A stretch of 64,000 nucleotides of DNA from Rosistilla ulvae (GTDB lineage: Bacteria > Planctomycetota > Planctomycetia > Pirellulales > Pirellulaceae). This document shows, piece after piece, positions 504-39,662 of this stretch (positions are counted from its first letter, which is position 1; each line of letters opens with the position of its first letter). Below the pieces are notes generated by a model. It did not search any database, was not told the DNA's origin, and saw nothing but the letters and a program-made list of their open reading frames with translations. The position numbers and the translations under genes were made by a program. The DNA is taken from the NCBI RefSeq assembly GCF_007741475.1, contig NZ_CP036261.1, forward strand, positions 1,488,001-1,552,000, in the 5' to 3' direction.

Positions 504-3500
504 TTAACTGCCGACGGTTTTGTTCCAGTGGTTCTTGAGGAATTTGTCGAACGGTTCAGCATTCAACTTTTCGTCGTTCCAGAACTCAAAGGTGACTTTG
601 ATGTCTCCCTTGGTTCGGGCCGGCGGTTTAATTCCCAGTTTACCCAACGCGACGCAGTCGATCGCTTGGTGCGGTCCGTCGACAGTGATCCGCAGGTTCA
701 TCGGATCTTTGGTTTCGATCTCGCACCAAGAGTGATTTTGGCCCGCCGGACGGACGTTGATCTTCTCGGGCGAACCAAACTCGACGCTCTCCTCGCCGGC
801 AAAGGCGATGATTTTATCGAGCAACTTGTCGACAAGTTCCAACGGCCAATCGGGCTTTTCGCCTTCGGGGAAGCCTTTTTCCAGGGTGTGCCATTTGCGG
901 CCCATCACCCGCCACGGGCTCATCGCATCCAGCTTCTCTTCGACTTCCTTTTCGGCTTGCAGCGCGGCCTGCCGGGTTCGAGCGACTTCGACCTTCGATG
1001 GACCATCCTCGGGACCGCGCCAGCTGGGGCGACTGATCTGCGGTTTGGTTCGCGTCTCGTGAACAAACACCTTGGCGTACGCAGCGATCGCTTCGTCCAA
1101 GAAGTGCCAGAACTCGGGGCGATCCATCTCTTCAAACTTGACGAATCGAATCTCGATCTCTTGGAACTTCGGATCGGTGTGGACGCGAACCCGTGGTTCG
1201 TTGCTGTAAGCCGGGATGTCTTCCATCTGATTCAGCGTCGGCAGCGGCAGGCGTCGTGGCAGATCGTCTTTGTTAAACGTTCCCTTTGGAACCCGCAGCT
1301 TCAACTTCATCCACCACGATTCGGAGGTGAACAAGTGCATGAACCAGGGACGGCTGGCGATCGGGCCTTTGACTTCGACGATGTTGCGGTGGTTGAAGTT
1401 GATAGGTTCGAAACAGTCCGCCTCTTCCATCCGCTGGACGATCGGCAGCACCATCTTCTCTTCCCATGAGACGGGATCGCCGGCGTTGTCGACAAGTTCG
1501 GTCGTGTGCCATTTGCGGCCATCCTCTTCCCAGGGCATCTTGGACCCTTCGCCGATCACAGGAGCGGCCTGTTCGCGTTCGAACTGTTCCAACGCCGCGG
1601 CGTGCGGATCAAATTCGTCACGATGTTCGTAGGGGCCCGCTTCGACCACGGGCGCCAAGAATTCACCGGTATAGCTGCGAAGCGGCTTCGTTTTGGCTCG
1701 CGACTTTTTCCCGGCGACTGCGTATTCGCTCAGCTGTTCGGGGGTTCCGGCGAAGACCAACTGGCCCCCTTCGGCTCCCGCTTCGGGACCGATGTCCAGG
1801 ATCCAGTCGGCAGCTTTGATGATGTCCAGGTTGTGTTCGATCACCAGCACTGTGTTGCCGACGTCGACAAGTCGCTGCAGGACGTTCAACAGCTTGGCGA
1901 TGTCGTCGAAGTGCAAACCGGTTGTCGGTTCGTCCAACAGATACAGCGTCCGCCCGGTATCGGGGCGGGCCAATTCCGCCGCCAGTTTAATCCGCTGGGC
2001 CTCACCACCGGAGAGCGTTGGTGCGCTCTGGCCGAGGGTGACGTAATCGAGTCCGACGTCGCAGATCATTTGCAGGATCCGCGTGATCTTCGGTTGGTTT
2101 TCAAACAGCCCGACAGCATCGCCGATCGACATGTTCAAGACATCGCTGATCGAATTGCCGTGGAACTTTACCTCCAACGTTTCGGGCGTGTAACGCGAAC
2201 CGCCACATTCCTCGCACGGCACCCAAACGTCGGGCAGGAAGTGCATCTCGATCTTACGGCCACCGGTACCCTCGCAAACTTCGCAACGACCGCCGGGGAC
2301 GTTGAAGCTGAACTGACGCGCCGTGTATCCGCGAGTCTTCGCTTCGGGAACTTGCGTATATAGATTGCGGATCAGATCGAACGCGCCGGTGTAAGTCGCC
2401 GGGTTGCTGCTAGGCGTGTTGCCAAGCGGGCTCTGGTCGACGCGGATCACTTTGTCGATCAATCCGATCCCGTCCAACTTGCCGTAACGTCCCGGACGAA
2501 CGCCCGAACGATGCAGCTTGCGGGCCAACGCGGGATACAAAATGTCATCGATCAACGAACTCTTACCGCTTCCCGAAGGACCGGTCACTGCGGTGAACGT
2601 TCCCAGCGGGATGTGGACATCGATGCCACGCAAGTTGTTTTCGCGGGCGTCGCGGATCGTGATCCATTGGCCCAACGGTGGATAATGCGTCGGCGCGTAA
2701 TCGGCTTTGCGAGCCAGTTTGCGTTCGGCCATCGTCTCGGGCCGCTTGCTGCTCTTCTTCTTAACCGGTTTGGCGGCAGACGCCTCGCTTTCGGGAGCCT
2801 TAATCATTCGCCGATTCGAAGGGATCGGGATCGCTTTGGCGTCGGAGATATACGGGCCGGTGACCGATGTCGGCGACTTGCCGATCTCTTCGGGGCTGCC
2901 ATCGGCGACGACTTGGCCACCGTTGCGACCCGCCTTGGGACCGAAGTCGAAGATATGGTCCGCACCGGCGATCACATCCTTGTCGTGCTCGACGACCAAC
3001 AACGTGTTGCCGAGGTCCCGCAGTCGATGCATTGCCGACAGCAAGCGGTGATTGTCGCGTGGGTGCAGGCCGATCGTCGGTTCGTCCAAGACGTACAACA
3101 CGCCGCACAGTCCGCTGCCGAGTTGGCCGGCCAGTCGAATACGTTGGGCTTCACCACCGGAGAGCGTCGACGCTCCGCGGCCGATGCTCAAATAGTCCAG
3201 CCCCACATCCAACAGGAACTGGATTCGCGATCGGATCTCGCGGATGATCTCGCCAGCGATCTTCTTTTCTCGCGGGTCAAGCTTCCAGGATTTGACAGTC
3301 TCGCCCAGTCGCGACAGCGGCATGTGAACGATGTCGCCGATCGTCAGGTCGCGGAATCGGACAGCCGACGCGTCGTCGCGAAGTCGCGTTCCGCCGCACT
3401 CGGAACAATCGATCTCGGCGGTGAATTTTTCCAGTTTGGCCCGCAGGGTCGGTGATAATTTCGAGGCCAATTCCAGCGAGGGATAAAGACCCTTGAAGCG

Positions 3501-6500
3501 GAACTTGAACAGCACACCCTTGGACGCACCGCTGTTAAGCGCTTCTTCCAATCGGTCGCCGCGGGTGTCGGTTGCGGCTTCGCCATCGGCATCGGAGCTG
3601 CTTCGTTTGCGTTTGGCGTTGTAAATCTTGTCGGCGACTTCGCGATCCGATTCACGCACGGCGATCCATTCGTCGCCGGTACCGTGGAAGATCAGATTGC
3701 GTTCGCGAAGCGTCAGGTCGTCGATCGAGCGGTCGATCGGAATCCCAGCGTGGCGTCCCAGGGCAGCCATCATTTGACGGGCGACACTGCGTTGCAGTTT
3801 CGGCCACAGGAAGACGGCACCTTCCATCAACGACAGTCGGCGATCGCGCAACAGAGCGTCGGGGTTGGTGCCGTGTTGGGTTCCCAGCCCTTCGCAGCGG
3901 CGGCAATAACCGGCGGCGCTGTTGAAGCTGAAGTGATGTGGAGTCAGCGGTTCGAAGCTGCGGCCGCAACACTCGCAGGCCAAGTGTTGGCTGTGCCGGA
4001 AGACCTTCCATTGCAGTTCGGGGCGATCTTCGTCAACGATCGCAAGGTCCATGATTCCGCCGCCGATTCCGAGCGCCAATTCGATCGATTCGGCAAGCCG
4101 GCCGCGGGTCTTCTCGCTGATCGAGACGCGGTCGACGACCAGTTCGATCTTGTGATTGGTCCGCATGTCGATCGTGGGAGCGTCTTGGATTGCACTTGTG
4201 GTGCCGTCGATCCGGATCCGTTGGAATCCGTTCTCTTGCATCTTGGCGAAGTGTTCCTTTGGATCTTCGTTGCCGCTGATCTCGATTGGAGCCAGCAGAT
4301 ACGCCTTGGTTCCCTCTTCCAATTGCAGCACCTTGTCGGTGATCTGGTCGGGCGTCTGCGTGCCGACCGGCTTGCTGCAATCGGGGCAGAACATCTTGCC
4401 CAGCCGAGCCATCAGAATCCGCAGGTAATCGTAGACTTCCGTTACCGTTCCGACGGTCGAACGCGGGGAGTGCCCCATGTTCTTTTGTTCCAATGCGACC
4501 GCGGGCGATAGGCCTTCGATCCGTTCGACGATCGGTTTTTGCATCTGCCCGATAAATTGGCGGGCGTACGACGACAGGCTCTCGACGTAGCGACGCTGCC
4601 CTTCGGCGTAGATCGTGTCCATCGCAAGGGATGACTTGCCGCTGCCGCTGGGGCCGCAGAAGACGCTCATCTTGTCGCGCGGTACCATCGCGTCGACCGA
4701 TTTCAGGTTGTGCTGTTCGGCTCCTTCGACCTCGATGAACATCGCTTCGCCGCCGCGCCGGTCGGTCGCGCCGTCGGTCAATTCGCTGAGCGATTTCTCG
4801 TTGGCTGCAGGATCGACCTCGCCGAACATGAACTTCCGCATCGCGCGGCTTGTATACGAGACCTGGTTCTGAGCCACCTCTTCAGGTGTGCCCGCTGCGA
4901 CCACGGTACCGCCGCCGGCGCCCCCTTCGGGACCGATGTCGATGATCCAGTCGGCCGTTTTGATGACGTCCAGATTGTGTTCGATCACCAATACTGTGTT
5001 GCCCCGTTCGACCAGGCTGTCCAAGACGCCCAACAGCATCCGGATGTCGGCGAAGTGCAAACCGGTTGTCGGTTCGTCCAAGACGTACATCGTGCTACCG
5101 GTCGACTTTTTGGAGAGCTCGCGAGACAGCTTGATCCGCTGCGCCTCGCCGCCCGAAAGCGTCGGCGAGGGTTGGCCGAGCTTCAAGTATTCCAGGCCGA
5201 CGTCAATCAATGTCTTTAGTTTGTCGGCGACCTTAGGAATGTTCTCGAACAGCGAAAACGCGGCCGAGACGTCGAGGTTCAAGACGTCGGAGATCGAGTG
5301 GTCTTTGAAGCGGACGCTGAGCGTTTCGCGGTTGAAACGCGCCCCTTCACAGACCGGGCAGGTGACCCAGACGTCGGCCAGGAAGTCCATGTCCAATCGC
5401 GTCGCTCCGTTGCCGTCGCACGCTTCGCAGCGGCCGCCGGAAACGTTGAAACTGAAGCGACCGGGCGTGTAGCCGCGCTTCTTCGCTTCGGGCAATTGAG
5501 CGAACAGTTTGCGGATCTCATCGAAGACCTTAACGTAGGTCGCCGGGTTGCTGCGCGGGGTGCGGCCGATCGCCGATTGGTCGATCGCGATCACTTTATC
5601 CAGATGTTCCAGACCGGTGATCTCATCGTGCTCCCCTCCTTCGCACTCGGCGCCGTTGAGGAATCGTCGCAGCGTCGGTTCGAGGATCCCGTTGACCATC
5701 GAACTCTTGCCACTTCCCGAAACGCCCGTCACGCAGACGAACAAACCGATCGGGAGGTCGACGTTGATGTCCTTCAGGTTGTTGTGCCGCGCACCCAATA
5801 ATCGCAGCCAACGCTCGTTAGGTTGGCGGCGGTGCTCGGGCGTTGGGATCGTTTCCTTGCCCGAAAGGAACTGGCCTGTGATGCTCTTCTTCGCTTTGGC
5901 AAGATCTTCCAGCTTCCCTTGAGCGACGACATAACCGCCGTTGACACCGGGGCCGGGACCGAAGTCGATGATCCGATCGGCCGCTCGCATCGTGTCTTCA
6001 TCGTGCTCGACGACGACCAGCGTGTTGCCTGCGTCGCGCAGCCGCAGCAGCGTTTCGATCAACCGATCGTTGTCGCGCGGGTGCAGACCGATCGATGGCT
6101 CATCCAGAATATAGAGTACGCCGACCAAGCCGCTGCCGATCTGGCCCGCCAAGCGGATCCGCTGCGATTCACCACCGGAGAGTGTTGGCGCGGTGCGGTT
6201 GAGGGTCAGGTATTCGAGGCCGACGCCCAACAGGAAGCCCAATCGCGTGCGGATCTCTTTAACAGCTTCGCCCGCGATCATCTGCTTCAATTCGTCCAGC
6301 TGCAGATAGCCGAGGAACTTGGCGGTTTCGGAGACCGGCAGATCGCAGAGCTCGGGGAGCGAGAGGGACGACTTTTCCATAAAGTCGGGATGGTCGGTCG
6401 CGATCCGAACCGCACCAGCTTGCGAATTCAATCGCTTGCCGTTGCACTCGGGACAGACCATCGTGTCCATGTAACCTTCGAACTGCGTCAGCTTGGTCTT

Positions 6501-33364: not shown

Positions 33365-33500
33365 TGGCATCGGCATCGCGGCGGCTGACGGCGCAAATGC
33401 CAGCTAAGAGGACCGGAAGAAGCGGGGAAACGCTTGGCGATGGCATCGGCATCGCGGCAGCTGGCGGCGCAAATGCCAGCTAAGAGGACCGGAAGAAGCG
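33365..33500. repeat. 60-base direct duplication spanning a stop codon
   Basis: Copy 1 at 33365-33424 and copy 2 at 33441-33500, both starting tggcatcggcatcgcggc and ending accggaagaagcg, with two mismatches and a 16-base spacer. Copy 2 contains the last seven codons and stop of the 113-residue membrane protein; copy 1 repeats that stop region downstream. Confidence 0.85.
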
Positions 33501-33821
33501 AATGAACGCTCCAAACGCCAGCAACGAACCAAACAGCGGGATCAAGACGATCAGCAATTTGGGGTTGAAGAACGTTGCACCAATCAAGATCACGCCGATA
33601 GCTGTCGCCCCAGGAGGCAGCCAGGCCGCGGGGCGACGGACCACGGGGTAGGCGACCCAACAGGCAAACAGCACAAATCCAACCCGCAGAAGAGCGGCGT
33701 TGGAGACCGATTGGCCCAGTCGATCGCTTGTCAATTCGCCGATCCCACCCCACGCCAGCAGAACGACCGCAACGATCAAGATCAGCACGCGTTGGATGTC
33801 GATTTTGGTTTCACTGCTCAT
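33480..33821 (-). CDS. Small membrane protein, last gene of the Deg operon
   Basis: 113 residues with three or four hydrophobic segments: VLILIVAVVLLAWGGI, LLRVGFVLFACWVAYPV, AIGVILIGATFFN and LLIVLIPLFGSLLAFGAF. It starts 6 bases after the stop of the double-inactive Deg-like gene, so it is almost certainly co-transcribed. No family recognised. It may anchor or assist the protease-like proteins, which is inference from position only. Its final codons (FFRSS) fall inside a 60-base sequence that is duplicated downstream. Confidence 0.8.
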   Translation of the reverse strand: MSSETKIDIQRVLILIVAVVLLAWGGIGELTSDRLGQSVSNAALLRVGFVLFACWVAYPVVRRPAAWLPPGATAIGVILIGATFFNPKLLIVLIPLFGSLLAFGAFIRFFRSS

Positions 33822-33827
33822 CGGCGA

Positions 33828-35789
33828 TCAGATCCGTTCCAACGATCGGATCCAACGTCCGACCGCATCGCGAACTTTGGGATCATCCGCCAACGGTTCT
33901 TTCTCCGTCGATGGCTGCTGGAGAACGGGGAAACCGACGTTGGCGATCACACGTCCCCAAACAGGCATCTCGGTTCCGCCGACGACCAGAAATTGGACCG
34001 GCGAGGCGGGATCGTTTTCGCTCAACGCAAACCCGCCCGGTCGACTGCCCGAAGCGGCAATGCCACCTCGGACCAGTTCGCGATCACGCAGCGCGACAAG
34101 CATGCTCATCTCCGCTCCCGCTCCAAATCCGCCGACGACGATCTGTTGCGGCGCGACGTTGATCGCCTGTTGCGTCTGTTGAATCAACCGCACGATCACG
34201 TCCGATTCGGCGGGCTTCCAGCGATCGCTTTCGGCTGCCCCGATCGCCAGGATCGCCAACTGATGCTTCGCCGCGACACTTTTCCATGCTTCGACCAACG
34301 GTTCCAATTTCTCGGTACCCGGGCGAGCCAACAAGACAAGCAGGCCAAGGCTAGGTCCTTTGTCTCCCTTCGGTTTCAGCAGACAGCTTTTGTTGGAGAC
34401 GTCCGGCAGCGAACGGGGGACGATTTCCCAAGCCTCTTCGGCGATCGGATCCTTCAGTTCCGGCAGCTCAGCAACAACGGTTTCGGGAGTCGATTGCAGG
34501 TCGCAGCGAACGTCCAACGGTTTGCCGTCGCGAAGGACTGTCAAATCCAAGTCCTCGCCGGGAGGATGGGTCATCACCAACAACCGGGCCCGATCGACGT
34601 CGTCGATCTTGTTGCCATCGATCGCTTGAATCGTGTCGCCGATCTGCAGCTTCGCACTGGCGGCGGCCGAGTCGTCAAAAATGTGAGCGATTTGCAGCGA
34701 TTTGTCCTGCGAATCGGCCAGCACGCCCAGCACCCGCGGCCGGAAGGCGGGGATATCGGCGGCCAATTCGACCTCGAACTCCAGCTCCTTCTCGTCGCGG
34801 AGAACCTTGATTTTCAAGACCTCTCCCGCGTCGCGTGGCCCCAGTAATTGTTTGATGTCGGCGTTCCAGCGAACAGCTTGTCCGTCGATCGCGATCAATT
34901 TATCTGCGGCTTGAATGCCGGCTCGCTTCGCTGGCGAAAGAGCCAGGACAGCCGACAGCGTCGTGTCATCGGAAAAGGGCATCTTGCTGGCCGGCACAAT
35001 CCCCAGCTTGCCAGCCCGAATGTCTTTTCCCGCCTTCATCGTTTCGACCCGGCTGGCGATTGCTTCGGCCGAGACAACAAAGGCGATCCCCGAATCGTAC
35101 CAGTCCGACTTTTCACCCGCCGACCCCGCTTCGGGTTTCATCGGGACCGAGATGCCGATCATTTCGCCGTTGATATCGACGACCGGACCGCCATAAAACG
35201 ACGGTGAAATACGAGCGTCGATTTGCACTGCGCGGCCGAACATTCGCTCGGTGGCACTGACGATGCCGATCGAAACCGAAGGGGTTTCGGGCGAGATCCC
35301 GCGGCCGACGGCGATCGCCCACTGGCCAACACGCACCTTCTCCTTGCGCTGCAACGCGACATGGTTCCCCGAACCGCTGGGTTTTGTTTTCAGCAGCACC
35401 AGCTCGCGGCTGAAGTCCCGCGCGACAAGTTCCGCTGGCTGCCGCGAACCATCCGCCTGGACGATCAAGATGCTCGCCGGCGTCTCTTCCAAGCCCCACA
35501 GGCTGGTCAGAATATGCCCTTGGTCATCGATCCGCGTTCCCGAAATCGGCGCCCCCAGGGTCAGTTCGCCCTGCGATGCCGAAGCTCCAATCGTTTCGAT
35601 CTGCACCACGGCACCTGCCGTTTTTTGGATCGCTTGTTGGATCGCTGCGTATTCGGCGTCTTGAGCGATCGCGACGCCAGGCGGCTGCGACGCGGCAAAC
35701 ACGACGGCTAGCGAAAGACTCGCAATGAACGGAGCGATGCCCCGGCGGCCTCGCCGCGACGACTGGTGATTTTGTCTCATGTGTTTCAT
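33828..35789 (-). CDS. Inactive Deg-like protein with two PDZ domains and alpha/beta-hydrolase-like domain
   Basis: 653 residues, exported (ASLSLAVVFAASQPPGVAIAQ). A trypsin-like S1C domain is at about 50-250, but aligned with its active neighbour all three catalytic positions differ: His to Trp98 (GHILTSLW), Asp to Glu129 (SRELVLLK) and Ser to Tyr199 (SPSFYGGP instead of NPGNSGGP). PDZ-like domains are at about 258-345 and 353-435 (AKRAGIQAADKLIAIDG, SAKLQIGDTIQAIDG). The C-terminal 190 residues resemble an alpha/beta hydrolase, with GGFGAGAEM where GxSxG is expected, so this nucleophile also seems lost. The product may be a non-catalytic binding partner. It starts 9 bases after the previous stop. 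An ATG three codons in (35780) has AGGA better placed. Confidence 0.88.
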   Translation of the reverse strand: MKHMRQNHQSSRRGRRGIAPFIASLSLAVVFAASQPPGVAIAQDAEYAAIQQAIQKTAGAVVQIETIGASASQGELTLGAPISGTRIDDQGHILTSLWGLEETPASILIVQADGSRQPAELVARDFSRELVLLKTKPSGSGNHVALQRKEKVRVGQWAIAVGRGISPETPSVSIGIVSATERMFGRAVQIDARISPSFYGGPVVDINGEMIGISVPMKPEAGSAGEKSDWYDSGIAFVVSAEAIASRVETMKAGKDIRAGKLGIVPASKMPFSDDTTLSAVLALSPAKRAGIQAADKLIAIDGQAVRWNADIKQLLGPRDAGEVLKIKVLRDEKELEFEVELAADIPAFRPRVLGVLADSQDKSLQIAHIFDDSAAASAKLQIGDTIQAIDGNKIDDVDRARLLVMTHPPGEDLDLTVLRDGKPLDVRCDLQSTPETVVAELPELKDPIAEEAWEIVPRSLPDVSNKSCLLKPKGDKGPSLGLLVLLARPGTEKLEPLVEAWKSVAAKHQLAILAIGAAESDRWKPAESDVIVRLIQQTQQAINVAPQQIVVGGFGAGAEMSMLVALRDRELVRGGIAASGSRPGGFALSENDPASPVQFLVVGGTEMPVWGRVIANVGFPVLQQPSTEKEPLADDPKVRDAVGRWIRSLERI

Positions 35790-35798
35790 CCTAACTGA

Positions 35799-36809
35799 CT
35801 ATCGAACCAGTCTCAGCGACAAGATTTCCGAGCCCCGCTGCAGGACGATCGAAACCGGATCGCGGCGATCGATGCTGCGCAGCTGCTCCAACAGACGGTC
35901 CTGGTTTTCAATCCGGACCTTCCCAACCAACAGAATCAAATCGTCGGGCCTCAGCCCCGCCGCGGCGGCGGGCGATCTGGGCACGACGGCGTCGACGTAG
36001 GCGGGCGTCTGATCCAAGACGTTGGGGACCATCAACATTCCCAGAGTTTCAAAGTTGTGCGATTTGTCGCGAGCCAACAGCTCCGTTTTGGGTGGCTCGA
36101 CGATCGCTTCGCCCGAGACGATCGCTAGCAACCGCGGCCGCAACGTCGTTGCGGGCAGGGCGTAGTTCAGCCAGGCACCGCTGCGCGCGTCGCGGAGTTC
36201 CTTGCCGAGCATGCCGACAAGTTCGCCGCCTCGAGTGACCAAAGCCCCACCGGCCGCGCCGGGGTTGTTCGCAACCAAGTCCAAGATCAGGACCTCGCCT
36301 TGATAAGCCGATTTGAAGACGCCGCTGCGGGCGTCCAGTTCGGCAACGCCAGCGACGTAGCCCTGCATCACGCTCGCTGGTTCCCGGCCGGTGGCGATGT
36401 TAAACAGATTGCTGATCGCCAACACCGGCTGGCCGGCTTGCGTCGGTGGCACCTCCCGAATCGCGAAGTAGGGCAAATCGCCTGCTTCAATTTTCAAGAC
36501 CGCCAGTTCTAACTGGGGTTCAAATCCGACAACTTCGGCTTCGAAGCGTCGCCCGTCGTCGAGGATCACCACGGGATCAACGTCCAGGACATAGCTCCAG
36601 GCCGTCGCGATGTGCCCCTCCGGAGAGACGAGGAAACCGCTTTGATAGGCTTCCAGACCTCCCAATCCACCGGCACCGTAGACCTTCACGACTTTACGCC
36701 GCGCGTCTTGGATCGTCTTTTTGACGGGATACTGAGCCTGTAGCAGAGCGGTGTTGAGGACCAGCGTCGCCAGCAACGCCACCGTCACGCATCGAATTCT
36801 ATTGTTCAT
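35799..36809 (-). CDS. Inactive Deg-like protein with PDZ domain
   Basis: 336 residues from the ATG at 36809, with a signal peptide (VTVALLATLVLNTALLQAQ). The trypsin-like fold is recognisable (SGFLVSPEGHIATAWSYVLD, LELAVLKIEAG, NNPGAAGGALVTRGGELVGM), but the triad is gone: the His position is Ser72, the Asp position Glu101, and the nucleophile Ala186 in NPGAAGG, which should be NPGNSGG. One C-terminal PDZ domain is at about 245-330 (SPAAAAGLRPDDLILLVG). It overlaps the end of the active protease gene by 11 bases, indicating coupled expression. Likely a pseudoprotease acting as a binding or regulatory partner in the periplasm, as inference. A longer start at 36881 would add 24 residues without leader features. 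Confidence 0.9.
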   Translation of the reverse strand: MNNRIRCVTVALLATLVLNTALLQAQYPVKKTIQDARRKVVKVYGAGGLGGLEAYQSGFLVSPEGHIATAWSYVLDVDPVVILDDGRRFEAEVVGFEPQLELAVLKIEAGDLPYFAIREVPPTQAGQPVLAISNLFNIATGREPASVMQGYVAGVAELDARSGVFKSAYQGEVLILDLVANNPGAAGGALVTRGGELVGMLGKELRDARSGAWLNYALPATTLRPRLLAIVSGEAIVEPPKTELLARDKSHNFETLGMLMVPNVLDQTPAYVDAVVPRSPAAAAGLRPDDLILLVGKVRIENQDRLLEQLRSIDRRDPVSIVLQRGSEILSLRLVR

Positions 36810-38517
36810 TTGCCGACGCCTTCCATTGTTCGACCTGCATCCGCCAAGCCCGCCGCTCGCCAAAATAGAGCGACAGTCCAACGGGTTGATTTTTGTCTCC
36901 CGCTTCGATCAACAGTTCCGCCGGGTCGCGGAAGCGATCGGCCCAGCATTCGACAGCTTCCAGCCGCCCCGATTCCGGATCGAAGTAGAACCATGATTCG
37001 AGTTCTCCGGAGGTGCCGACCAAGACGTCGCGGAGTGGATATTCGCCACGCAGCGGCATCGTCCCCAGATAATAGACCTCACCGAATCGATCGGGCCCCA
37101 ATTCAACCATCCGATGCCACGCGTCCAGACAAGCGGCGAAGGCGGGCAATTGCTGGCTATCGATCCCGTCGTATAAAGCTGTCGGGTCCAACAGGGTCGG
37201 CTGGCCCCCATCGGTTGCGATCGAGACCTGCTTGCCCAGAGTCAGATCCAGCACGGGGCCATCGTTATCGGTCGGTCCCTCGATCGTCCAAGCTCCCGAC
37301 GCGTTGGGGCTGTGCTTTTTCAAGGACTCCCACAACCGCTGCTGATGCAGTCGATTGAAGTAGTAATTGGCGTATCCGTGTTTGGCTTCGTAAACCGCTT
37401 CGACCGACGCCGGCAGTTCGGCGTCATGAGCGTTTGCGGCAGCGATCTGATCCTTTTCGGAATCCCCTTCTTTTTCCTGCGGGCGAGGAGGAGGTGGCGG
37501 CATCGACGCGGCCATCTTCTCTAGCAGTTCATCGCGTCCGTGGACGCCCGCCAAGCGGACGATCGTGTCGACGTTGCGACCTTCGTGGCGGAAGCTGATC
37601 GGCACTCGCCAGCCTTTGGGAAGCGTACCGAGCACGTTTTGCAAGTCGTTGGCCGACGCGACGTCGCGGCCGTTGACCGCCAGGATTTCGGCACCGTAAC
37701 GCAGCCCGCGGCGGTAGGCGTCGGAGTTCTCTAGGATATTGCTGACGATCACCTTCCCTTCGTCGGTGGCAACGGTCGCACCTAGCGTGGCGTGATCGAC
37801 GATCCGGCCGCTGTGCAGATAGCCGAGGAAGTTCTTGGCTTGGTTGATTGAAATCGCGTAGCCGACGCCAACGTTCACGCGGCCTCGCTTTTCGAAGGAG
37901 GCGCGGCCGACGATACCGATCAGTTTCGAATCGGCAGCGTACAGCGGACCGCCCGAATTCCCTGGATTGATCGACGCGTCGGTTTGCAAGCAATCGGCGT
38001 ATTCCAAAAGCGTTCCCGAGGGATATTGATAGCGATGAACGCCGCTGATCAATCCCCAGGTGACGGTCGGTTGCAGGTCGTTGGCCAGCAGGAACGGGTT
38101 GCCGATCACCATGCACCAATCGCCCTGTTGGACGCGGTCGCTGTTCCCCAGCTCTGCGGCGGAGAAGTCGCTGCGTCCCAGCAGCTTGACGAGCGCCAGA
38201 TCGCCGACCGGATCGATTCCCACGATGACTGTGTCGTAAAGATTCCCGTCGGCCATCCCACAGACCATGTACGCGCCGGCGGGGCTGCTGACGTGAAAAT
38301 TGGTCAGCGCGAAACCTTCCGGATCGATCACCACTCCGCTGCCGCCACCGGCTCCGCTGGGGACAAACACGCTGACGGCCGACTTGGTCGCCTGGGCGAT
38401 CGCCGCAATCCGATCCGCTTCGGCTTTCAAAACGCTAGCATCGACATCCGCACTGCGGCCGGTTGCCGGCAAGGCGACCAGCAGACACGCGGCTAAAAAC
38501 GACTTCCGGTCGATCAT
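36799..38517 (-). CDS. HtrA/Deg-family serine protease with PDZ domain, active site intact
   Basis: 572 residues, exported (signal FLAACLLVALPATGRS). S1C trypsin-like domain with a complete triad: His75 (LTNFHVSS), Asp106 (VGDLALVK) and Ser188 (DASINPGNSGGPL). A PDZ-like domain is at about 243-320 (NSDAYRRGLRYGAEILAVNG). A Pro-rich linker (MPPPPPRPQEKE) follows, then about 220 C-terminal residues of a domain I do not recognise (YANYYFNRLHQQRLWE, GPVLDLTLGKQVSIATDG, ELESWFYFDPESGRLEAVE). Expected role: envelope protein quality control. The ATG overlaps the stop of the NPCBM-like gene (ATGA). Two catalytically dead paralogues follow in the same operon. Confidence 0.93.
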   Translation of the reverse strand: MIDRKSFLAACLLVALPATGRSADVDASVLKAEADRIAAIAQATKSAVSVFVPSGAGGGSGVVIDPEGFALTNFHVSSPAGAYMVCGMADGNLYDTVIVGIDPVGDLALVKLLGRSDFSAAELGNSDRVQQGDWCMVIGNPFLLANDLQPTVTWGLISGVHRYQYPSGTLLEYADCLQTDASINPGNSGGPLYAADSKLIGIVGRASFEKRGRVNVGVGYAISINQAKNFLGYLHSGRIVDHATLGATVATDEGKVIVSNILENSDAYRRGLRYGAEILAVNGRDVASANDLQNVLGTLPKGWRVPISFRHEGRNVDTIVRLAGVHGRDELLEKMAASMPPPPPRPQEKEGDSEKDQIAAANAHDAELPASVEAVYEAKHGYANYYFNRLHQQRLWESLKKHSPNASGAWTIEGPTDNDGPVLDLTLGKQVSIATDGGQPTLLDPTALYDGIDSQQLPAFAACLDAWHRMVELGPDRFGEVYYLGTMPLRGEYPLRDVLVGTSGELESWFYFDPESGRLEAVECWADRFRDPAELLIEAGDKNQPVGLSLYFGERRAWRMQVEQWKASANEQ

Positions 38518-39662
38518 TTTCGCAACCTCGGTTTCCTGAGCAGAAGAGCATCTCCGGTCGAACTGTCCTGCCCCGATTCGATGCGGATCTGCATCCGTCG
38601 CTTCCCCGCGACATCCAATTGAATCGCTTCGGGCAGCTCCGCCGCCGTCAGTTTTTTGTCCAACGCGGCGTCATCATCCAACTGGATCACCACCCGGACG
38701 ACGCCGCCGTCGAAGGAGCGGTTGGGAGTTTCGACGATCGTTTCGAACAAGCGGTCGTCGTCGCCCAACCGGATCGTCAGTTCCGAACCTGCCGACAACG
38801 CGATCCCCGCAGCGACATCGCGCGGGCCAAACATCGACTTGGAAAATTCGGGATCCAAAAGCCCGCCGATCGCAGCGGTGAAAGAGACGTTTGCCGCGTC
38901 GGCGGCTCGCAGCATTCGCACGTTGCCGCGGAATTCGATTTGGTGAATCCGATCCAAGGGGATCGAGCGAGAGATGCCGGCGGGAGTCTCCAGCTGCAGC
39001 GTCTTCCCCTGGCCGGTGATTTTGCTAGCGGACCAAGTCGATCCGCCGGCGTCGGTGATCTGAGCTTGAATGCGTGCCGCGTCGCCGTCGCTGCTGCGGA
39101 AGACGATCCCTTCCAAACGATCCAGCGGAGCTTCGACCTGTTGGCCCCCAAGATCGAACGAGACCGCATCGCGGTTGATCGCCAGCACGGTCCCGGCGAC
39201 TTCGTCCAATTGATCGTTGCCCGCTCGCACGACCAAGGTGTCCGACGGCTTGTCGGCTCCCAGCTTCTGCTCCCATTGATCGTTGATCGCTTTAGCGACC
39301 GGAGGGCGGAAGCGGATCGACGCGACTTGCGAGACGGGGAAGCTCAACAGAGCGTCGTCGGCCGCGGCCCCCAGCAGATCGATCTCCACCGACTTGCCCT
39401 GCATCTTCACGTCGCGGGTCAGCAATTGGCTGCCGTCGGCCAGCCCGACGCGGACCGCGGTGGGGGAAGTCGATGAATCGGCGTCGCGCTGCAGTTTGAC
39501 GACCGATTCGAGCGGGAACTGTTCGGTTTTACCGGCGGTCTGGATCGAGATCGCGTTTTCGTCGATCGCCACCCATTCGCCCGAGACCTTTTGCCCATCG
39601 ACGCGGTCGACGGTCACTTGACCGAGCCCTGCGACGATCAGCAATAATCCAATATATGCCAT
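38514..39662 (-). CDS. Exported NPCBM-like protein, first gene of the Deg operon
   Basis: 382 residues from the ATG at 39662, which places the hydrophobic leader (MAYIGLLLIVAGLG) at the N-terminus. It contains several short beta-rich repeats of similar plan (SGEWVAIDENAISIQTAGKT, GTVLAINRDAVSFDLGGQQV), each followed by LxxVVxLxR or LEGIVFR. The C-terminal 110 residues resemble an NPCBM-type carbohydrate-binding domain (GSELTIRLGDDDRLFETIVE, GGVVRVVIQLDDD, IQLDVAGKRRMQIRIE). It could tie the downstream protease system to cell-surface polysaccharide; this is inference. The stop overlaps the HtrA start. No strong ribosome site is seen. Confidence 0.8.
   Translation of the reverse strand: MAYIGLLLIVAGLGQVTVDRVDGQKVSGEWVAIDENAISIQTAGKTEQFPLESVVKLQRDADSSTSPTAVRVGLADGSQLLTRDVKMQGKSVEIDLLGAAADDALLSFPVSQVASIRFRPPVAKAINDQWEQKLGADKPSDTLVVRAGNDQLDEVAGTVLAINRDAVSFDLGGQQVEAPLDRLEGIVFRSSDGDAARIQAQITDAGGSTWSASKITGQGKTLQLETPAGISRSIPLDRIHQIEFRGNVRMLRAADAANVSFTAAIGGLLDPEFSKSMFGPRDVAAGIALSAGSELTIRLGDDDRLFETIVETPNRSFDGGVVRVVIQLDDDAALDKKLTAAELPEAIQLDVAGKRRMQIRIESGQDSSTGDALLLRKPRLRK

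Follow-up and report, generated by a model that had tools for sequence, protein, structure and literature searches.

An ancient planctomycete gene trio of one active HtrA protease and two catalytically dead homologues

Introduction

Proteases of the HtrA (Deg) family are symmetric homo-oligomers in which each subunit both senses and cuts. Here we describe a set of three HtrA-type genes in the planctomycete Rosistilla ulvae (Pirellulaceae), whose genome consists of one contig of 7.48 Mb. Within a stretch of 64,000 nucleotides of this contig (NZ_CP036261.1, positions 1,488,001 to 1,552,000; hereafter the window), three consecutive genes on the minus strand encode an active HtrA protease, P1, and two dead homologues, P2 and P3. 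Sequence comparison indicates that P1, P2 and P3 are a real, ancient and widely conserved planctomycete module. In our judgement the chances are even that the three proteins work as one exported machine of the HtrA type, as the subunits of a mixed asymmetric oligomer in which only P1 would cut; the complex, its stoichiometry, subunit order, direction of signalling and substrates are what we infer from the sequences.

The accounts of known systems given here follow excerpts of the papers cited. An active and a dead HtrA protein occur together in MamE and MamO, where the dead MamO is required for proteolysis by the active MamE; MamO binds metal, and its influence on MamE may be indirect (PMC4794232). 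As in that gene island, the trio loci hold both kinds of protein. However, AMB-1 has one dead partner with a magnetosome task, whereas the trio has two dead members, and a TauE-like transporter domain and a metal site of two histidines are further features of MamO. No TauE-like domain was found in P2 or P3 with Pfam, and the NCBIfam model for MamO, whose cut-off is 800 bits, gives them 38.9 and 32.7.

In plants, a degenerate HtrA domain mediates the trimerisation of DEG7, and Deg5 and Deg8 form a mixed hexamer, of which only recombinant Deg8 is active (PMC3473262, PMC4754418). DEG7 joins active and degenerate HtrA domains in one chain, and P1 and P2 likewise form a single polypeptide in eight loci of relatives, although they are separate genes in the window. 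DEG7 differs in being a chloroplast protein with one degenerate domain, a homotrimer of a two-domain chain, and in having no third dead gene. In mixed trimers of HTRA1, a dead subunit restores the activity of another subunit (PMC11252331); those trimers were built from engineered mutants of one gene, whereas the trio consists of three naturally kept genes. The Escherichia coli proteases DegS, DegP and DegQ resemble the trio in sequence, in the presence of PDZ domains, in the full activation cluster of P1 and in the model fold of P3, but they are homo-oligomers with all subunits active, while P2 and P3 lack the triad.

In a survey of 91 genomes, 42 of 966 serine proteases were inactive homologues (PMC2605481), and planctomycetes have been noted for their many PDZ proteins (PMC6411480); the trio is not described in the excerpts of either paper. 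Among the literature matches listed, we found no description of a trio of one active and two dead HtrA proteins, most subscription journals lying outside the scope of the search. A preliminary description of the window had called such a module seemingly undescribed. For the trio this agrees with the matches listed, but pairs of active and dead HtrA proteins or domains are known from MamE/MamO and DEG7.

Results

P2 and P3 lack the catalytic triad of HtrA proteases

Triad columns were taken from alignment to E. coli DegP, DegQ and DegS. P1 (572 aa; window 36799..38517, minus strand), which comprises an S1 domain and one PDZ domain, carries His75, Asp106 and Ser188 at the three positions. P2 (336 aa; 35799..36809, minus strand), with one PDZ domain, has Ser72, Glu101 and Ala186, and P3 (653 aa; 33828..35789, minus strand), with two PDZ domains and an alpha/beta-hydrolase-like tail, has Trp98, Glu129 and Tyr199. 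The alignment bore out the residues that the preliminary description had given for each protein. The His column of P3 falls on Trp98 in an alignment of own-genome proteins and on Gly99 in another, and holds His in neither. Relocation of the triad elsewhere in P2 or P3, which would have refuted the preliminary description, was rejected, as no intact triad was found in either protein when aligned with the E. coli HtrAs.

All three proteins score above the Pfam cut-off for Trypsin_2 (27.6 bits; P1 96.6, P2 75.5, P3 70.4) and for PDZ, and their closest PDB sequences, among the best 60 matches each, are HtrA/Deg entries. The whole genome contains 20 Trypsin_2 matches, 18 of them above the cut-off, including the trio. 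An AlphaFold2 model of P3 (mean pLDDT 91.2, pTM 0.85) was matched best in the PDB by DegP when searched with Foldseek (3otp_D, E 2.3e-31), with DegS 3gdu_A at a TM score of 0.80 by target length; the model of P1 had a mean pLDDT of 86.8. On these alignments P2 and P3 are homologues of HtrA, not HtrA proteases, whereas P1 has the His-Asp-Ser triad that defines them.

The same division is found among orthologues. The P1 triad is intact in 97 of 97 (in L135 and L138 the His was misaligned and its TNYHV motif was confirmed by eye), and in a larger set of 162 rows every ungapped row carries the triad residue, with gaps in three, two and one rows at the respective columns. A nucleophilic Ser is found in none of 100 P2 loci and none of 171 P2 rows, the latter having Ala (135), Gln (10), Gly (6), Tyr (6), Thr (5), Pro (5), Phe (2), Asp (1) or Glu (1) in its place; His occupies the His column in one of the 171. 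In P3 the nucleophile column is Tyr in 94 of 95 orthologues and Phe in the other, and the 158 non-redundant rows with a residue there read Tyr 157 times and Phe once. The His column of the 95 P3 orthologues holds Phe, Trp, Tyr, Ile and others. In the larger alignment, five P3 rows have a His somewhere in this segment, not in a consistent column.

Such constancy of Tyr is unusual for a discarded site and could mean that P3 is still catalytic, with Tyr199 as its nucleophile. We consider this very improbable: no His or Asp partner is conserved, the oxyanion-loop glycine 199 (DegS numbering) is kept in only 2 of 158 non-redundant rows, and a diverged P3-like protein in locus L252, described below, has Thr at this position. 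The Asp column also bears on an Asp-to-Glu change that had been reported for both dead copies. The change is present in the window, but it does not hold as a feature of the module: Glu is found in 9 of 95 P3 orthologues (Met 33, Gly 16, Lys 12, others) and 49 of 100 P2 orthologues (Asp 18, Gly 16, others). Because Glu is not conserved, a common Asp-to-Glu ancestry of P2 and P3 was rejected, and its occurrence in both window copies is, on this comparison, a local coincidence.

The three genes are kept together across planctomycetes

We searched 100 genomes of the family for relatives of P2 and took 60 regions from among the stronger matches; counts of family loci are thus conditional on the presence of P2. 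Phylum-wide, 47 of 294 genomes had a P2 match at 1e-20; four family genomes plus G138, G232 and G316 were set aside from these, and the others gave 40 further regions. Finally, GTDB contigs were scanned and the best 80 of 563 relatives examined; these were labelled as planctomycete groups or, once, as 'bacterium'. The three sets share species, so their counts are not additive. P1, P2 and P3 were found together in 56 of 60 family loci, 38 of 40 phylum-wide loci and 69 of the best 80 loci of the GTDB scan. The order P1-P2-P3, on whose conservation the preliminary description had made its claim depend, is therefore widely kept in relatives.

Among the family exceptions, P1 was not found in L060, on a 6-kb contig, P3 was not found in L092, on a contig that stops shortly after P2, and in L041 and L050 (genus g28) P3 lies megabases away. 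Both phylum-wide exceptions (L111, L113) have P2 alone. The remaining GTDB-scan loci hold P2 and P3 (four) or P3 only (seven), and a contig start truncates all four of the former and three of the latter (L188, L198, L214). L096 (genome G047), L097 (G053) and L098 (G012) carry a further, diverged trio whose P3 frame is shorter; G047 and G053 contain both versions.

Profiles of P3 and P2 were then compared over the identical 392 genomes of the phylum, with cuts set at breaks in the ranking (6e-96 then 3e-81 for P3; 5e-72 then 4e-50 for P2). Both proteins were found in 66 genomes, P3 only in one, P2 only in none and neither in 325 (Fisher p = 8e-75, a value that is too strong since the genomes are related). 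The sole P3-only genome, G289, has P3 on a 5.4-kb contig ending beside it. P1 is present in 67 of 67 genomes with P3, its margin over other HtrAs being small in deep lineages. Co-occurrence persists where the genes are scattered: seven genomes keep all three, with every gene apart in G204 and G186 and P3 apart in G403, G458, G438, G028 and G083. The split P3 genes examined (L221, L223, L225-L227) have the Tyr as well as Arg178 and Gln191 (DegS numbering), two residues that are considered below. Another 17 family genomes were picked for a weak or absent P2 or a split-off P3; seven had both P2 and P3 (P2 in two pieces in G093), four had neither and six had P3 only. Of the P3-only genomes, G035 has a P2 fragment at the contig start, P3 starts at contig base 6 in G034 and G054, and the contig ends beside P3 in G005; the other two are G039 and G089 of genus g39, to which we return below.

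Two more loci were examined because several matches below the orthologue cut adjoined one another. L252 (G105 contig 77; open reading frames (ORFs) 5162-6205, 4136-5134 and 3117-4145, minus strand) holds one active and two dead genes in the order seen in the window: the first reads His-Asp-Ser, the second Arg/Gly/Phe, and the third, P3-like, has Asn in place of Asp, Thr in place of Ser and no clear His, but keeps Arg178 and Gln191. L253 (G138 contig 184; ORFs 486-1880, 1870-2976 and 2961-4280, plus strand) is arranged dead-dead-active, the dead genes reading Ser/Asn/Asp and Asn/Asp/Thr. Since both were found below the cut, our counts are lower bounds for the arrangement of one active plus two dead genes.

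The single-frame fusions of P1 and P2 comprise four of the 40 phylum-wide loci (L121, L126, L136, L137), two of the 80 GTDB-scan loci (L203, labelled Pirellulaceae, and L215, labelled Planctomycetales) and two loci selected because their frame lengths hinted at a fusion (L247, L248). Those other than L203 and L215 belong to four families (f41, f84, f37 and f46). In genus g51, P2 and P3 are fused instead (L249, L250), and thus each adjacent pair is joined in some lineage. Signal peptides were assessed by eye throughout; P1 of the window has a signal-like N-terminal stretch, and no internal signal peptide was seen in either kind of fusion.

In a tree of 61 protease-PDZ segments, P1, P2 and P3 form one clade each (supports 100/100, 100/99 and 100/99) and ten ordinary HtrAs stand apart (96/81). 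Similar subgroups recur inside the P1, P2 and P3 clades, which argues for one ancient set inherited jointly. The tree separates P2 and P3, but its root was placed at the midpoint and fits either one or two losses of activity. Against two congeners, dN/dS was 0.041 and 0.048 for P1, 0.054 and 0.049 for P2, and 0.137 and 0.144 for P3. The missing catalytic residues might be taken as a sign of functionless copies in decay, but dN/dS values of about 0.05 and 0.14, substitutions fixed across the phylum and the co-occurrence of the genes led us to reject pseudogene decay, to which we give next to no credence.

P2 and P3 have lost different parts of the activation cluster

In DegS, Arg178 of loop L3, together with the LD loop of the neighbouring subunit (Pro161, Tyr162, Leu164), Thr167 and Gln191, forms a cluster that shapes the active site (PMC11642142). 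The cluster was traced in 162 P1, 171 P2 and 175 P3 rows by alignment with DegS, DegP and DegQ of E. coli, and non-redundant subsets were counted as well. P1 has the cluster in full: Pro161, Phe162 and Leu164 in 160 of 160 rows each, Arg178 in 159 of 160 (one Val) and Gln191 in 161 of 161, with non-redundant counts of 148/148 for Phe162, 147/148 for Arg178 and 149/149 for Gln191. All 158 non-redundant rows of P3 have Arg178 and Gln191 (Arg182 and Gln189 of the window protein), but only one of the 158 has Pro161, and Leu164 is found in 11 of 156. The non-redundant P2 rows show an aromatic LD residue at 162 in 154 of 155, Val, Ile or Leu at 164 in 149 and the oxyanion-loop glycine 199 in all 155; a hydrophobic residue replaces Gln191 in every one of them, and Arg178 is present in only 22.

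P3 therefore resembles a sender that has lost part of the receiver, and P2 a receiver that has lost the sender. If the subunits were arranged in a ring running from P1 to P2 to P3 and back to P1, these complementary losses would degrade the P2-to-P3 interface on both sides, while the two other interfaces would keep their main elements. A column that we take to be a trimer-core position holds Trp in most P1 and P3 and mostly Arg or Pro in P2, which by itself tests nothing.

These residues also bear on the possibility that P2 and P3 form assemblies of their own and serve P1 from outside its trimer, as adaptors that capture substrates, chaperones or scaffolds, through their PDZ domains and closed active sites. 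Both dead proteins have retained PDZ domains, the invariant oxyanion-loop glycine of P2 means that peptides could still be held, P3 stands alone in a few loci, and the dead domain of DEG7 is a precedent for an assembly part that mediates trimerisation (PMC3473262, PMC4754418). However, the eight fusion loci fix the ratio of P1 to P2 there, and loss of the sender in P2 together with partial loss of the LD loop in P3 would be unexpected if each formed a signalling homotrimer. We regard such adaptors as unlikely, though to be taken seriously.

Other genes of the unit and its genomic setting

The trio is part of a five-gene unit (window 33480-39662, minus strand) that reads P5, P1, P2, P3 and P4 from 39662 down to 33480. 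Neighbouring genes overlap by 4 and 11 bases and are then 9 and 6 bases apart; the coordinates, overlaps and gaps in the preliminary description were all correct. The first gene, P5 (382 aa; 38514..39662, minus strand), has a hydrophobic N-terminus and encodes an NPCBM/NEW2-domain protein (PF08305, 28.0 bits against a cut-off of 23.9), which substantiates its earlier assignment as NPCBM-like. Of the 60 family loci, 54 have it upstream of P1, and it was found in 28 of 40 phylum-wide loci. P4 (113 aa; 33480..33821, minus strand), a small membrane protein co-directional with the other four, gave no family in Pfam or NCBIfam at E 0.1 and is lineage-specific. Matches above 70 bits occur in 3 of 60 family loci and matches of any strength in 13; with so few loci, its proposed membership of the module was not sustained. 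An imperfect direct duplication of about 60 bases, seen by eye, lies at window positions of about 33365-33425 and 33440-33502, the second copy covering the 3' end of P4.

P1 continues after its S1 and PDZ domains in a C-terminal domain of about 190 aa. The window copy of this domain matched no Pfam family at E 0.1 and had its best PDB match at E 0.021, and among 18 relatives eight show a weak match to DUF4292, the best at E 2.1e-4. The tail of P3 (window 33828-34470) resembles Abhydrolase_2 below the cut-off (E 3.7e-4). Its nucleophile column holds Ser in 7 of 77 rows, so that the tail also seems inactive and P3 is probably a double pseudoenzyme in these lineages.

Upstream of P5, 66 of 95 loci carry a gene of one family in the same orientation. 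A second, coiled-coil-like family is likewise present in 66 of the 95, though the two sets of loci do not fully coincide; its frames often lie on the opposite strand, where they are probably shadow frames. Three longer stretches were compared: in L236 and L237 the upstream genes run on into BatA, DUF58 and MoxR by Pfam, and two proteins scanned in L238 matched no family. The R. ulvae genome has a BatA gene at 2929099 and a homologue of the nearest upstream gene at 2938747, both about 1.4 Mb from the trio. As a lead only, it is plausible that the trio serves the upkeep or quality control of a MoxR/Bat envelope complex. Seven BatA-domain matches in this genome suggest several operons of the MoxR/Bat type. 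Between the Bat/VWA genes and the NPCBM gene lie long genes without Pfam matches, of 827, 568 and 371 aa in L236 and 778, 642 and 351 aa in L237.

This setting favors an account in which the dead domains were repurposed to bind a ligand, a metal or an envelope complex, and in which nothing but a common pathway, for instance MoxR/Bat upkeep, connects the three genes. The invariant Tyr and frequent aromatic residues at the old active site of P3 could form a new pocket, and MamO offers the example of a dead HtrA that binds metal and perhaps affects MamE indirectly (PMC4794232). Such repurposing would, however, leave unexplained the repeated fusions of P1 with P2 and the retention of Arg178 and Gln191 in P3, and in R. 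ulvae the trio stayed together at a distance of 1.4 Mb from the BatA gene. We find this account quite improbable.

The genome also encodes a different family of trypsin-like proteins that pairs an active with a dead member. At C1:6447500-6452000 (L229), ORFs 1181-2215 and 2187-3350 overlap; the active protein has 345 aa with the motifs LTAAHV and GDSGGPL, and the dead one has 388 aa, reads VSKASEL and QCGGPV, and contains a PDZ-like stretch within its protease domain. A pair of this type is fused into one protein of 658 aa at C1:2827000-2831500 (L231, ORF 1261-3234).

Discussion

We return to the mixed oligomer of P1, P2 and P3. It would be built on the usual HtrA trimer, in its simplest form with one subunit of each. 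P3 would be the sensor and sender: its PDZ domain or domains would bind a cue, whereupon Arg182 and Gln189 would support the LD loop in the adjacent P1 subunit and activate the only active site. P2, without sender residues, would receive from P1, hold substrate uncut, or both, with its LD aromatic residue and oxyanion-loop glycine serving this role. With the subunits running from P1 to P2 to P3 and back to P1, only the P2-to-P3 contact would have suffered losses on each of its two sides. The preliminary description had suggested that the dead copies are regulators. Fusions, co-occurrence in spite of scattering, purifying selection and the complementary loss of activation residues lend this suggestion indirect support, and P2 and P3 may accordingly regulate P1.

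Several observations weigh against the mixed oligomer or its proposed signalling. The loss of the receiver in P3 is partial, as 97 of 158 rows still have an aromatic residue at LD position 162, and P2 retains Pro161 in only 8 of 155. Arg178 and Gln191 are also found in seven ordinary active HtrAs of R. ulvae, so that P3 has retained, not gained, the two residues; four more distant trypsin-like proteins of this genome with a triad do not have both. In resting DegS, Arg178 contacts the PDZ domain as well (PMC11642142), and its conservation in P3 need not mean that it signals to a neighbour. Since only two ring orders are possible, such a residue pattern would agree with one of them by chance. 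P3 occurs without P1 or P2 nearby, despite upstream room, in L141 (where the frame is broken), L187, L204 and L210. In genus g39 (G039 and G089) P3 is present and P1 and P2 were not found in assemblies that are 82 and 72% complete, and the 1.5 kb upstream of P3 in G039 hold no P2. P1 is unlinked from the P2-P3 fusion in genus g51. Finally, L253 differs in gene order, and it is the active copy there, not a dead one, that is without Arg178.

The full form of the proposal is a natural obligate asymmetric heterotrimer, conserved across much of the phylum, with a catalytic P1, a dead sender P3, a dead receiver or holder P2 and one-way signalling around a ring in which the P2-to-P3 step is silent. 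We put it forward tentatively and think it somewhat more apt to be wrong than right. If it is true, the trio divides cutting and sensing among three paralogues and would be a natural separation-of-function system for the transfer of PDZ binding between subunits, which has so far been approached with engineered mutants. It would also provide an ancient and strictly conserved bacterial pair of pseudoproteases, tied in relatives to a MoxR/Bat-type operon. Because P1, P2 and P3 have been inherited as a set over a long time, their joint inheritance suggests that many planctomycetes possess a protease machine with built-in regulatory parts that do not themselves cut.

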